NCBI GenBank assembly: GCA_013153685.1
Contig: JAADDX010000055.1
Span: forward strand, 1 to 33,119
Source: Campylobacterota bacterium
Lineage (GTDB): Bacteria > Campylobacterota > Campylobacteria > Campylobacterales > JAADDX01
Direction of reading: 5' to 3'
Length of the DNA stretch: 33,119 nt
Below are positions 3,280 through 30,279 of the stretch, one piece after another (the first letter of the stretch is position 1; each line of letters starts with the position of its first letter). A program made the translations under genes and the position numbers. Below the pieces are notes generated by a model. It was not told where the DNA came from and searched no databases. It was given only the letters and a program-made list of their open reading frames with translations.

Positions 3280-4061
3280 TGGATAGTACTAATCTTTTCT
3301 AGTTGAGGAATAAGGGTTTGTAATTGCTCTAACTCTAGCATATTATCTCCATCACTTAGAGCTTCTTGTGGATTATAGTGCACTTCAAAAAAGAATCCAT
3401 CCACACCAACTGCCGCTGCTGCCCTAGCTAAATACGGCACATATTCCCTCTTACCACTACTTTTGCCATTAGCACCTCCAGGCATTTGAACAGAATGTGT
3501 AGCATCAAATATCACAGGAGCAAATTGTCTCATAATAATCAAACTTCTCATATCCACTACCAAGTTATTATAACCAAAACTTGATCCTCTCTCTGTAAGC
3601 CAAACTTTATGTTTTAGTGAATTATCGTAATTCACTTCATTGCACCCACGTGTTTTTAGCACCTTCAAAACGGAAAATTTCATATCATTCGGTGACATGA
3701 ACTGCCCTTTTTTAATATTCACAATTTTATCGGTTTTTGCCGCTTCTACCAACAAATCTGTTTGCCTACACAAAAATGCGGGTATTTGCAATACATCCAC
3801 CACTTCACTAACCGGTTTTACTTGTGAAGTCTCGTGAATATCTGTGAGTATTTTGTATCCAAATTCGTTGTTAACCTCTTGTAGAATCTTCAATCCTTCC
3901 TCCATCCCAACACCTCTAAAACTATCAAGACTTGTGCGATTAGCTTTATCAAAGCTTGCTTTGAAATAAAACTCATGCTCTTTTAAATAATGCAAACTTT
4001 CAGCAATTCTCATCACTTGTTCTTTGCTCTCTATAACACAAGGTCCGGCAATAACAATCAT
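3276..4061 (-). CDS. kdsA: 3-deoxy-8-phosphooctulonate synthase (KDO8P synthase)
   Basis: [89 protein letters not shown]. Confidence 0.97.
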
Positions 4062-4091
4062 TCTTCATCCTTTATAACGTGTATTTTGGGG

Positions 4092-4138
4092 AATTATACC
4101 ATAAGAATTTGGAAAATTACGGTTTTTTTGGTATAATT
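4092..4138. promoter_or_regulatory. Divergent kdsA/dnaA promoter region with mirrored extended -10 elements
   Basis: AATTATACC (4092-4100, minus strand GGTATAATT towards kdsA) and GGTATAATT (4130-4138, towards dnaA) form a perfect 9-bp inverted repeat of two TATAAT elements. Confidence 0.55.
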
Positions 4139-4167
4139 AAGATTATTTCGATATTGAAGGGGTTAGC

Positions 4168-5463
4168 TTGCTTGATAAGATTAAATTAGCATTAAAATAC
4201 AGTGAAGATGAGATAGTTTATAAGCGATATATCCAGAATCTAAAGCTAGATAAGAGCTCTAATTCACAATTTCTAAAAATCGAAGCCCCAAATATATATA
4301 TAGCAACGTACCTAAAAAGACATTTTAAGCAAAAATTTATCGATATATACCAAAGGGAGACTGAAATCGTCCCGAAGATAGAATTCATCACCAAATCATA
4401 CCAAGGAAAAATTGATTTTGAAGAAGCTATTAAGAAGGATTTCACTAACTCCACAGTAACGTTGGTGCCTGAATTCACTTTTGATAGTTTTGTAGATGGT
4501 GCGAGTAATTTATTTGCCTACAACACTGCCAAATCAGTAACCAAATCCCCTGGGACATTATATAATCCATTGTTTATTTATGGAGGAGTTGGACTTGGAA
4601 AGACTCATTTACTCCAAGCTATCGGAAACGAACTTAAAAACAAATTACAAATCACATACGTGACTAGCGAACAATTTACCAATGATTTTACGTACCACTT
4701 AAGAAATGACTCTATGCAAGATTTCCACAAAAAATACAGACAGTGTGATTTGTTGTTAATAGACGATATTCAATTCTTTGCGGATAGAGAAAAAACTCAA
4801 GAAGAATTTTTTCACACTTTCAACGAGCTCATAGCCAACAAAAAACAGATTTGCGTTACCGCAGATAGGCACCCCAAAAACATACTTGGGATAGAAAAAC
4901 GCCTATCTACGAGATTTGAACAAGGTATTATTGCAGAGATTCAACCACCGGAATTAGAGACAAAAATCGCTATTATCAAAAAAAAGTGTGAATTAAACAA
5001 CATCACGTTACCAGATGACGTAATTCACTTCATCGCTACTACACTAAATAATAACATTAGGGAAATTGAAGGTATGATTACACAAACTTACGCGATGGCC
5101 AATATGATCGGAACAGAGATCAGTCTCGACTTTACCAAAGAGATATTCAAAGAACAGATGGATAACAAGGAAATTACACTAGATACAATAATCAAAATCA
5201 TATCAAAAGAATTCAATCTAAAACCAAGTGAAGTAGTAACCAAAAGCAGAAAACCGGCTATCGTATTAGCAAAAAGGACTGGAATATTTCTAGCACGTGA
5301 ATTAACCAAAAAATCAACCACACAAATCGCTAAATTTTTCGGATTAAAAGACCACAGTGCTGTAAGTCATGCTATAAAAGCATTTAATAAAAAGATTAAA
5401 GATGATAAAGACTTTAAAATCAAACTCGAAGAATTGAAAAATAAAATCAAAAATAGTGAATAA
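4168..5463 (+). CDS. dnaA: Chromosomal replication initiator protein DnaA (TTG start)
   Basis: 431 aa; NPLFIYGGVGLGKTHLLQAIGN Walker A, DLLLIDDIQFF Walker B, C-terminal KSRKPAIVLAKRTGIFLARELTKKSTTQIAKFFGLKDHSAVSHAIK DnaA-box-binding helix. Confidence 0.98.
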   Translation: MLDKIKLALKYSEDEIVYKRYIQNLKLDKSSNSQFLKIEAPNIYIATYLKRHFKQKFIDIYQRETEIVPKIEFITKSYQGKIDFEEAIKKDFTNSTVTLVPEFTFDSFVDGASNLFAYNTAKSVTKSPGTLYNPLFIYGGVGLGKTHLLQAIGNELKNKLQITYVTSEQFTNDFTYHLRNDSMQDFHKKYRQCDLLLIDDIQFFADREKTQEEFFHTFNELIANKKQICVTADRHPKNILGIEKRLSTRFEQGIIAEIQPPELETKIAIIKKKCELNNITLPDDVIHFIATTLNNNIREIEGMITQTYAMANMIGTEISLDFTKEIFKEQMDNKEITLDTIIKIISKEFNLKPSEVVTKSRKPAIVLAKRTGIFLARELTKKSTTQIAKFFGLKDHSAVSHAIKAFNKKIKDDKDFKIKLEELKNKIKNSE

Positions 5464-5580
5464 TGTGAAAATATTTTCACAGATTTTTCACCGTTAAAAA
5501 TCCCATAAAATGGGCTTTAAATGGTATTTTCACATATTCACTATGCTTATTACTATTACTAAAAAATATTTAATAATTTA
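5464..5580. other. Candidate replication origin (oriC) between dnaA and dnaN
   Basis: TTTTCACA-type motifs at 5464-5471 (inverted), 5474-5481, 5484-5492, 5525-5534 and 5533-5541; then TTA TTA CTA TTA CTA (5547-5561), i.e. five DnaA-trios 3'-[A/G]AT-5'; then AAAAAATATTTAATAATTT. Confidence 0.8.
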
Positions 5581-5590
5581 AGGAGAAAAA

Positions 5591-6652
5591 ATGAACATAC
5601 AAATCCAAAAATCTATCTTAGATAACATTCTAAATCAAATGGTCAATTTCACAGACAAGGATAACTCACAAATAACATCTCATATACTAATCCAAGCTCA
5701 AAACAACACAATAACTCTAAAAGCTACTGATAAGGAAATAAATATCATCTATACAATAAATGTAGATAACATACAAGAAGAGGGGATTACTAGCATTAAC
5801 GGAAAGAAGCTTCATGAGATTATCAAAACACTCAATGATGATCTTATTACTATAAAAACAACAGATTCAATCAACATAATTTCTCAAAAAGATTCTATCT
5901 ATAAATTGCCAGCATTTGATGTAAGTACATATCCTCAATTTCCAGCAATAGATGATAACTTTGTAAAACTAGATATTAATCCAATCCTATTTATAGAAGG
6001 TTTGAAAAAAACTTTTGTAACAATAGATACAAACAATGCCAAATACGAACTAAATGGGGCTTTGATTGATTTTGATGATACCCAAACAAACATAGTATCC
6101 ACAGATACCAAAAGATTAGCGTTATTTGCTATACCCAATCAAAAACAACATCCTCAAATTATTATTCCCAAAAAAGCGATTGCGGAAATTAAAAAATTGT
6201 TTTTAGATAACTTTGAAGTATTTGTAAATGATATTCAATTAGCTGTAAAATCGAACAATATCACTTTTTTTACCAATCTTATCAATGGTGTATTTCCGGA
6301 TTATAAACGTATTATTCCAACTCAATACAAATACACACTTACCCTAAATAAAAACGATTTTATAAAAGCAATCAAAAGAATCAACGTTATTTCCAATGAA
6401 GTAAAAATAACTATTATGCCAAATATGATGGAGTTTGAATCTATCTCATCTGAATCAATAGAAGCAAAAACAGATATGCCAATTACCACTCCTATAGAAA
6501 ATTTCGTATTTGCGATAAATTCAAAGTTTGTCTTAGAATTTTTAAATGTGGTTGATAGCAATGAGATAGAATTGTGTCTAAACGAACCAGAAATCCCTTT
6601 TACTCTAAAAGATGGAAATTTTCAAACTATCGTAATGCCTTTGAGTATATAA
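5591..6652 (+). CDS. dnaN: DNA polymerase III subunit beta (sliding clamp)
   Basis: 353 aa; three-domain clamp signature, position directly after dnaA, C-terminus ELCLNEPEIPFTLKDGNFQTIVMPLSI. Confidence 0.95.
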   Translation: MNIQIQKSILDNILNQMVNFTDKDNSQITSHILIQAQNNTITLKATDKEINIIYTINVDNIQEEGITSINGKKLHEIIKTLNDDLITIKTTDSINIISQKDSIYKLPAFDVSTYPQFPAIDDNFVKLDINPILFIEGLKKTFVTIDTNNAKYELNGALIDFDDTQTNIVSTDTKRLALFAIPNQKQHPQIIIPKKAIAEIKKLFLDNFEVFVNDIQLAVKSNNITFFTNLINGVFPDYKRIIPTQYKYTLTLNKNDFIKAIKRINVISNEVKITIMPNMMEFESISSESIEAKTDMPITTPIENFVFAINSKFVLEFLNVVDSNEIELCLNEPEIPFTLKDGNFQTIVMPLSI

Positions 6653-28756: not shown

Positions 28757-29224
28757 TTATTTGCATTGATATAAGCTTGGAGCTGTGAGGTATTTGCTCC
28801 ATCTACATGCATCTAAATTTACTCTTAATACCACAGTATATAATCCATCTTTATAATTTTCATCATCAATAGTAGCACCTTTGATGATACCAAATACTTC
28901 TGTTTTAACACTTGTGCTTTGTGTGATAAGATCTTTTACTTTGTCTCTTGCACTTAGTTTGATTCCATACATTTTTTCTGCTAGACTTCTATAGGCATCC
29001 ACAACTGCAGCTCTTCTTGCAAGTGCTTTTGCTTGAGCATGTGATATTGCATTAAGAGGAGCTACCCCTTGTCCAATACCAGTAACTCTAATAACAGGCG
29101 ATTTTTTGATCACGGGTGAATTGGCAATAATACCTACTACCGAAGAGGTTTGAATGGCCGGTGCTGAAATAGTAGCCGCAACAACGCTACTCGCAACTAA
29201 TATCGGTAAGATAACTTTTGTCAT
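28757..29224 (-). CDS. LPP20/FlgP-like family protein, copy 2
   Basis: 155 aa; signal peptide, VTGIGQGVAPLNAISHAQAKALARRAAVVDAYRSLAEKMYGIKLSARDKVKDLITQ...FGIIKGATIDDENYKDGLYTVVLRV typical of LPP20/FlgP. Confidence 0.75.
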   Translation of the reverse strand: MTKVILPILVASSVVAATISAPAIQTSSVVGIIANSPVIKKSPVIRVTGIGQGVAPLNAISHAQAKALARRAAVVDAYRSLAEKMYGIKLSARDKVKDLITQSTSVKTEVFGIIKGATIDDENYKDGLYTVVLRVNLDACRWSKYLTAPSLYQCK

Positions 29225-29637: not shown

Positions 29638-30150
29638 TTATCTACATCTATATAAGCTCGGAGCTGTGAGGTATTTACTCCATCTACATGCATCTAATTT
29701 TACTTTCAACACAACCGTATACAATCCATCTTTCCATGTTTCATCATCAATAGTAGCACCTTTGATGATACCAAATACTTCTGTTCTTACTTCTGTTCTT
29801 TGTGTGATTAAATCTCTGATTCTATCTTTTGCACTTAATCTAATCCCATACATTTTTTCTGCTAAACTTCTATAAGCATCCGCAATAGCAGCTCTTCTTG
29901 CTAGGGCTCTTGCTTGTGCTGGAGATACGGTATTTACCGGAGGTACACCTTCACCAACACCAGTTACATTGATGATTGGAGATTTTTTAAGGATTGGAGA
30001 ATTTGGGATAATACCTACTACACTTCTTTGTGTTACAGGCTGTGGATTGTTTTGTTTTAACACTACGTTGATATTTGTAGGCGTGTTTTGTGTCTGTGCC
30101 GCAAATAAACCGACACTCCCGATTAATAAAGTCGCAATGCTCTTTCTCAT
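29638..30150 (-). CDS. LPP20/FlgP-like family protein, copy 1
   Basis: Start revised from 30240 to ATG 30150 (MRKSIATLLIGSVGLFAAQ signal peptide, SD AAAAGGAA). Highly similar to the protein at 28757..29224. Confidence 0.77.
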   Translation of the reverse strand: MRKSIATLLIGSVGLFAAQTQNTPTNINVVLKQNNPQPVTQRSVVGIIPNSPILKKSPIINVTGVGEGVPPVNTVSPAQARALARRAAIADAYRSLAEKMYGIRLSAKDRIRDLITQRTEVRTEVFGIIKGATIDDETWKDGLYTVVLKVKLDACRWSKYLTAPSLYRCR

Positions 30151-30176
30151 GACGAATTCCTTTTTTTCACAAAGAG

Positions 30177-30192
30177 CAGCAATTATTGTTCC
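30177..30192 (-). promoter_or_regulatory. Sigma54 (RpoN) -24/-12 promoter upstream of LPP20/FlgP-like copy 1
   Basis: Minus strand TTTTTGGAACAATAATTGCTG: GG and GC exactly 12 nt apart (GGAA-N6-TTGCT); predicted start about 30167, 17 nt before the ATG. Confidence 0.65.
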
Positions 30193-30279
30193 AAAAAGTA
30201 TGACTAGATGTATATGTGAGTAGTGTGAGGAAATTGACAAAAGTAAGATAATGTGGAAATATTACATGTAATGTGCAAA

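Follow-up and report, generated by a model that had tools for sequence, protein, structure and literature searches.

A probable origin-unwinding module between dnaA and dnaN of an uncultured Campylobacterota bacterium, with reverse DnaA boxes at a class-wide distance and without a canonical oriC1

Unwinding of the chromosome origin has been mapped to the dnaA-dnaN region in A. butzleri, W. succinogenes and S. denitrificans (PMC5043019) and in C. jejuni (PMC6052347). In H. pylori, unwinding takes place downstream of dnaA and is abolished by mutations of the DnaA-trios (PMC8235120), and the box-trio module is required (PMC8287927). Neither H. pylori nor B. subtilis reportedly survives the deletion of oriC1 (PMC5043019). 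An upstream box of B. subtilis works in both orientations and with helical phasing, and probably acts through a DNA loop (PMC6669920). Tail-to-tail boxes were noted earlier for three species, and no particular box pattern was conserved among four (PMC5043019); no clear-cut pattern was described for the boxes of C. jejuni (PMC6052347). How DnaA box arrays direct the opening of the strands is still being worked out, and their patterns have been described as variable, even between closely related bacteria.

The DNA analyzed here, referred to as the window, is a single contig of 33 kb (C87) from an uncultured Campylobacterota bacterium related to Nautilia and Campylobacter, whose assembly amounts to 1.3 Mb in 92 contigs. 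Its DnaA shares 78% identity with that of one genome from the same family and about 60% with those of family f15, and the closest named relative is a Nautiliaceae MAG. About 100 relatives were compared, as discovery genomes and held-out loci. A contig scan with a single protein query gave no matches, while an alignment-based scan retrieved eight named relatives of the group. Two genomes of family f23 (G038 and G052) have atypical dnaA neighborhoods, with no dnaA match to the query. In the window, the gene order is kdsA-dnaA-dnaN-tig, with the initiator gene dnaA at 4168-5463 (+ strand; Pfam Bac_DnaA and Bac_DnaA_C) and the sliding clamp gene dnaN at 5591-6652 (+ strand; identified by Pfam). 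The order ruvC-dnaA-dnaN-gyrB is not present, given that ruvC is found on contig 19 and gyrB on contig 20. HobA, the partner of DnaA in Campylobacterota, is encoded on contig 7 (PF12163, E 7.4e-58). Elsewhere in the window, two similar adjacent genes on the - strand (28757-29224 and 29638-30240) have in common a LARRAA.DAYRSLAEKMYGI stretch and appear to be a tandem duplication.

The region 5455-5590 is very probably the unwinding half (oriC2) of a Campylobacterota chromosome origin that opens by a box-trio mechanism. This assignment rests on the elements themselves, on their class-wide conservation, on a fixed distance between boxes, on the low stability of the duplex and on a skew switch at dnaA in the complete relative G015. 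With the 9-mer register of this class, which has the TTCAC core at positions 4-8, six cores are found in all, two of them reverse (starting at 5456 and 5465), two forward (5476 and 5487) and two in twin forward boxes (5529 and 5537). The stop codon of dnaA (5461-5463) is directly followed by a perfect 18-bp palindrome, TGTGAAAATATTTTCACA, at 5464-5481. The first predicted DnaA box, TTATTCACT on the - strand (5455-5463), overlaps the last dnaA codons and the stop codon, and occupies a slot, here called -73, that is kept across the class. The left arm of the palindrome is a predicted box ATTTTCACA on the - strand (5464-5472) in the conserved -64 slot. Its right arm is the same predicted box on the + strand (5473-5481), a lineage-specific extra that is also found in the sister genome G001. 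A further predicted + strand box, TTTTTCACC (5484-5492), is likewise a lineage extra, with a forward core also present there in family f15, whose spacers carry two forward cores in the stretch matching the right arm and this box.

The predicted twin boxes follow on the + strand, ATTTTCACA at 5526-5534 (core 5529-5533) and ATATTCACT at 5534-5542 (core 5537-5541), the latter being proximal to the unwinding element. After the spacer ATGC (5543-5546) come five DnaA-trios, TTATTACTATTACTA, at 5547-5561 on the + strand (TTA TTA CTA TTA CTA; bottom strand 3'-AAT AAT GAT AAT GAT-5'), recognized from the sequence and from relatives, and then an AT-rich tail (5562-5580). The TTCAC-core box at 5534-5542 thus has three or more trios (.A. 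on the bottom strand) no farther than 16 bp away, the arrangement by which an oriC2 or basal unwinding system is recognized. An earlier note on this DNA had listed the palindrome after the dnaA stop, TTTTTCACC, two boxes, the TTA/CTA triplets and the AT-rich tail, and all were located as given. It had described the two boxes as abutting and five nucleotides from the trios; the boxes are present, but the 9-mer register places them with a 1-bp overlap and four nucleotides from the trios. It had also placed the start of unwinding at about 5547-5575, which agrees with the finding that the least stable 40 bp of the whole window, an AT-rich unstable element, begin at 5542. The predicted DNA unwinding element, made of trios and tail, spans 5542-5582. 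The sixth core (reverse, 5456-5460, in the box over the dnaA stop codon), the meaning of the left arm and the absence of oriC1 are points beyond that note. Between the two groups of boxes, CATAAAAT (5504-5511, + strand) aligns with the TATAAT of G047 and may, with low confidence, be the -10 region of a dnaN promoter; it is overlapped by a hairpin, ACCGTT...CCCATAAAATGGG...AATGGT (-9.5 kcal/mol, in 5490-5525).

The box sequence TTTTCACA occurs 77 times in the 1.3 Mb, a frequency similar to that of its reversed control, and three of these copies fall within 71 bp at this locus; no second cluster of it was found anywhere in the genome. The twin-box motif TTCACNNNTTCAC has its single genome occurrence here, and (YTA)x5 occurs twice in the genome, once at this locus. 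In 60 dinucleotide shuffles of the window no more than four TTCAC cores were found per 120 bp, versus the six observed, and the combined pattern of twin boxes and trios had a mean of 0. The only other run of three TTCAC cores in the genome, on contig 72, is without twin boxes. A perfect 18-bp palindrome is expected 0.2 times per shuffled window, which is weak evidence alone, and this one is unique in the genome even when two mismatches are allowed.

The module sits between dnaA and dnaN and recurs in relatives, in line with the proposal of the earlier note that an origin candidate with boxes and trios lies there. The sister genome G001 has a nearly identical layout, TTCACTTATTCAC-ACAGC-CTATTACTATTACTA, and in most of 57 relatives the region downstream of dnaA has forward boxes that a short spacer separates from YTR runs, ahead of dnaN. 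The alignment of dnaA-dnaN spacers, which that note had suggested as a check, showed that boxes and triplets are conserved. Runs of at least four YTR triplets are found in 12 of the 57 relatives and of at least five in six of them; because many families have shorter or interrupted runs, five clean trios represent the strong end of the range and are not unique. Boxes are oriented tail to tail in 45 of 54 spacers. An order-wide search for the twin-box and trio pattern gave matches in 160 of 400 genomes, with the reversed control also matching a fair number. Given that the pattern is too strict for degenerate twin boxes and that the control matches too, this search was used mainly to draw held-out loci. 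Two genomes, G005 (f5) and G012 (f12), have none or one box upstream of dnaA and no recognizable box-trio module (oriC2) after it.

Base composition was examined as well. In G015, the nearest complete relative, dnaA lies at 203-204 kb and a negative GC skew becomes positive at about 200-220 kb, within about 20 kb of the gene; a second change of sign is found near 1.07-1.16 Mb, roughly opposite dnaA; this genome has no skew minimum distant from the dnaA locus. In the 33-kb window, from a genome in 92 contigs, the skew and the GC3 skew switch near 5.5-6.7 kb. Most genes of the window, on either strand, have a replication-type GC3 skew, whose sign switches around dnaA-dnaN with little dependence on the strand of the gene. 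The GC3 skew of dnaA versus dnaN was considered as a fine test of the initiating side and set aside; it is gene-specific and negative in both genes across the class (50 genomes), and is therefore uninformative for the fine placement of the switch.

The reverse boxes keep a fixed distance to the twin boxes. Counted from the first twin core to the reverse core, the left arm of the palindrome precedes the twin boxes by 64 bp, or about six helical turns, and the second reverse box lies at 73 bp. In the discovery set of 49 genomes, 38 have a reverse core at 62-66 bp and 36 have one at 71-75 bp; the former slot is represented in 16 of 18 families. Family 9 fits the slots once its first twin box, which is degenerate, is taken as the starting point, and inspection by eye adds one spacer of family 13. 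The held-out set consisted of 60 further loci from the order-wide search, in which twin boxes and trios were the sole requirement; these loci were split by eye, on the box-trio sequence and before the reverse boxes were inspected, into 53 likely origins and seven chance matches. Of the 53 likely origins, 47 have a reverse core in at least one of the slots (62-66 and 71-76) and six in neither; none of the seven chance matches has one. Within 150 bp, 82 of 96 reverse cores fall in the slots, versus 7.3 expected, and 14 fall outside; in shuffles, 0.4 loci (maximum 4) have a core at 62-66. Eight named loci (from Nautiliaceae, Sulfurovum, Sulfuricurvum, Sulfurospirillum and another) have distances of 62-64 and/or 71-74 bp. 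The distance between reverse and twin boxes has a standard deviation of 0.8 bp, compared with 45 bp for the distance to the dnaA stop, and among relatives the reverse box is found from 1 to 252 bp after that stop. Three loci (L232, L233 and L243, from G218, G352 and G087) have additional reverse cores, at 85-86 and 95-96 bp, which lie some two turns past the slots and suggest steps of whole turns. No earlier report of the 64/73-bp spacing was found in the literature searched, subscription journals lying outside its coverage.

This geometry bears on how the locus is to be read. All the genomes belong to one order-level group, so that the distance could simply have been inherited by shared ancestry without functional constraint. 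This appears unlikely, given that the DNA between reverse and twin boxes keeps its length although its identity between families has fallen to about 36% (29-31% when shuffled), that the position of the box group with respect to the dnaA stop varies by up to 250 bp, and that many off-slot cores, at 54, 83-86 and 95-96 bp, are near whole turns from 64. A promoter shared between the box groups was rejected as the cause of the fixed distance, because the position of the promoter varies among families. For the same reason, among others, it is highly improbable that the boxes serve mainly for control of dnaN transcription by DnaA and that the origin is elsewhere. The possible -10 element between the box groups and the location of the trios within the likely dnaN leader would suit such control, but repression needs neither trios, nor twin boxes, nor the stretch of lowest stability; the genome has no other TTTTCACA cluster, with the triple-TTCAC run of contig 72 lacking twin boxes, and relatives unwind in the dnaA-dnaN region (PMC5043019, PMC6052347).

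The palindrome was proposed in the earlier note as a special unit for autoregulation or core binding. As such this is not supported, because relatives retain both cores and not the perfect symmetry; the left arm corresponds to the class-wide -64 box and the right arm to an extra forward box, so that one half of the palindrome reads as universal and the other as local. Its perfect 18-bp symmetry, together with a predicted RNA hairpin of -7.2 kcal/mol (z -3.0) that has a U-run after it, would be expected of a site for a dimeric regulator or of a dnaA terminator rather than of two DnaA boxes. Such a reading of the palindrome is nonetheless distinctly unlikely: in relatives the 64-bp distance and both TTCAC cores persist without the symmetry, the cores being 6 nt apart in G000 and G001 and 11 nt apart in family f15, and most relatives lack the forward arm. 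As a terminator it was rejected, the hairpin being weak and the symmetry lost in relatives. A CRP-like site was also discarded, given that TGTGA and TCACA are 8 bp apart in the palindrome and 6 bp apart in the CRP consensus. Double use of the palindrome, as DnaA boxes plus regulator site or terminator, may occur.

With the region read as oriC2, experiments in relatives suggest how DnaA binding, filament formation and unwinding at the trios may proceed at this locus. DnaA would occupy the twin forward boxes (5526-5542), from which a filament of ATP-DnaA would grow onto the five bottom-strand trios (5547-5561) and open the adjoining AT-rich DNA for helicase loading. The reverse boxes (5455-5472) lie on the same helical face as the twin boxes and six to seven turns before them; DnaA bound there would probably touch the twin-box complex, and the contact, through a short loop or wrap, may aid or gate opening. 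It is the spacing that points to this bridging, to which we give slightly better than even chances. A helically phased distance in at least 16 families leads to a simple physical model, that of same-face contact over six turns.

The other half of the origin does not have its usual form. In 45 of 52 genomes, a divergent ruvC precedes dnaA and the gap between the two genes contains 2-10 TTCAC cores, the oriC1 of the literature. Here, kdsA is the neighbor of dnaA, at a distance of 106 bp. No TTCAC core, and hence no canonical oriC1, is found in this gap (4062-4167) or in the 300 bp upstream. The dnaA promoter core TTTTTGGTATAAT, common to G001, is retained. A 480-bp upstream frame gave four cores because it extends into kdsA and dnaA, with none in the gap. 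Other genomes without adjacent ruvC (G033, G041, G003 and G021) retain upstream boxes. Relocation of the old oriC1 together with ruvC was rejected, because no cluster of boxes is found at ruvC, which lies beside thyX on contig 19, or at gyrB on contig 20. Misassembly at the kdsA-dnaA junction may be considered; against it, ruvC and gyrB each lie within other contiguous neighborhoods.

These observations, with ruvC and gyrB on two further contigs, the former without boxes, would be explained if the origin is truly monopartite, oriC1 having been lost once kdsA came beside dnaA, and we lean a little towards this. Speaking against it, six TTCAC cores are found inside kdsA at 3617-3838 (3617-, 3631+, 3718+, 3804+, 3824- and 3834-). 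Six cores in these 222 bp compare with 1.8 when synonymous codons are resampled (P 0.0015) and with 2.8 under within-gene permutation (P 0.014; P <0.002 for the cluster), and kdsA in 29 relatives has about one core on average. Given that the cluster is above the synonymous-codon nulls, oriC1 may have been rebuilt in coding DNA, inside kdsA, for which this is weak evidence, the kdsA test having been chosen post hoc. The dnaA reading frame itself contains 10 cores, versus 3.5-5 by synonymous-codon nulls, and such cores are enriched in dnaA across the class (234 observed versus 151 expected in 55 genomes), strongly so in the family of the window.

The locus therefore carries a known origin module, and what is new is that the reverse boxes keep a fixed distance throughout the class and that a canonical oriC1 is absent. 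An origin of this kind is a natural experiment on the role of the second half. Taken together, we hold it to be somewhat more probable than its opposite that a strict Campylobacterota rule exists, with a reverse pair 63-65 and 72-75 bp upstream of the twin boxes, whose fixed short loop works in opening and outlived the loss of canonical oriC1, the latter being maybe rebuilt inside kdsA. Such a rule would run counter to the literature, in which no shared pattern of boxes is recognized.

Among described origins, that of C. jejuni is similar in having its unwinding region between dnaA and dnaN, boxes 1-2 with a 1-bp overlap followed after about 5 bp by the unwinding element, and further boxes in the 3' end of dnaA, and it is treated as monopartite; it differs in its degenerate trios, versus the five clean ones here, and in still having boxes upstream of dnaA (PMC6052347). 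The bipartite origins of A. butzleri, W. succinogenes and S. denitrificans also have boxes with TTCAC cores and tail-to-tail oriC2 arrays, and unwind in oriC2, 8-18 bp past the proximal box; they are defined by an oriC1 between ruvC and dnaA, which is missing here, where ruvC and gyrB are not neighbors (PMC5043019). In H. pylori, oriC2 likewise has a pair of boxes beside a short spacer, about five trios and an AT-rich tail (PMC8235120, PMC8287927). Unlike the locus described here, it is accompanied by an oriC1 and by topology-sensitive boxes of other sequence, and the distal box of its oriC2 does not face outward (PMC5043019). The basal unwinding system at incC of B. subtilis also combines twin boxes and trios, there with a phased upstream box, and its phasing and looping would be a natural model for the Campylobacterota reverse boxes; nonetheless, the upstream box of B. 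subtilis is functional at many positions (PMC6669920), whereas the reverse boxes of Campylobacterota are fixed at about 64 and 73-74 bp.
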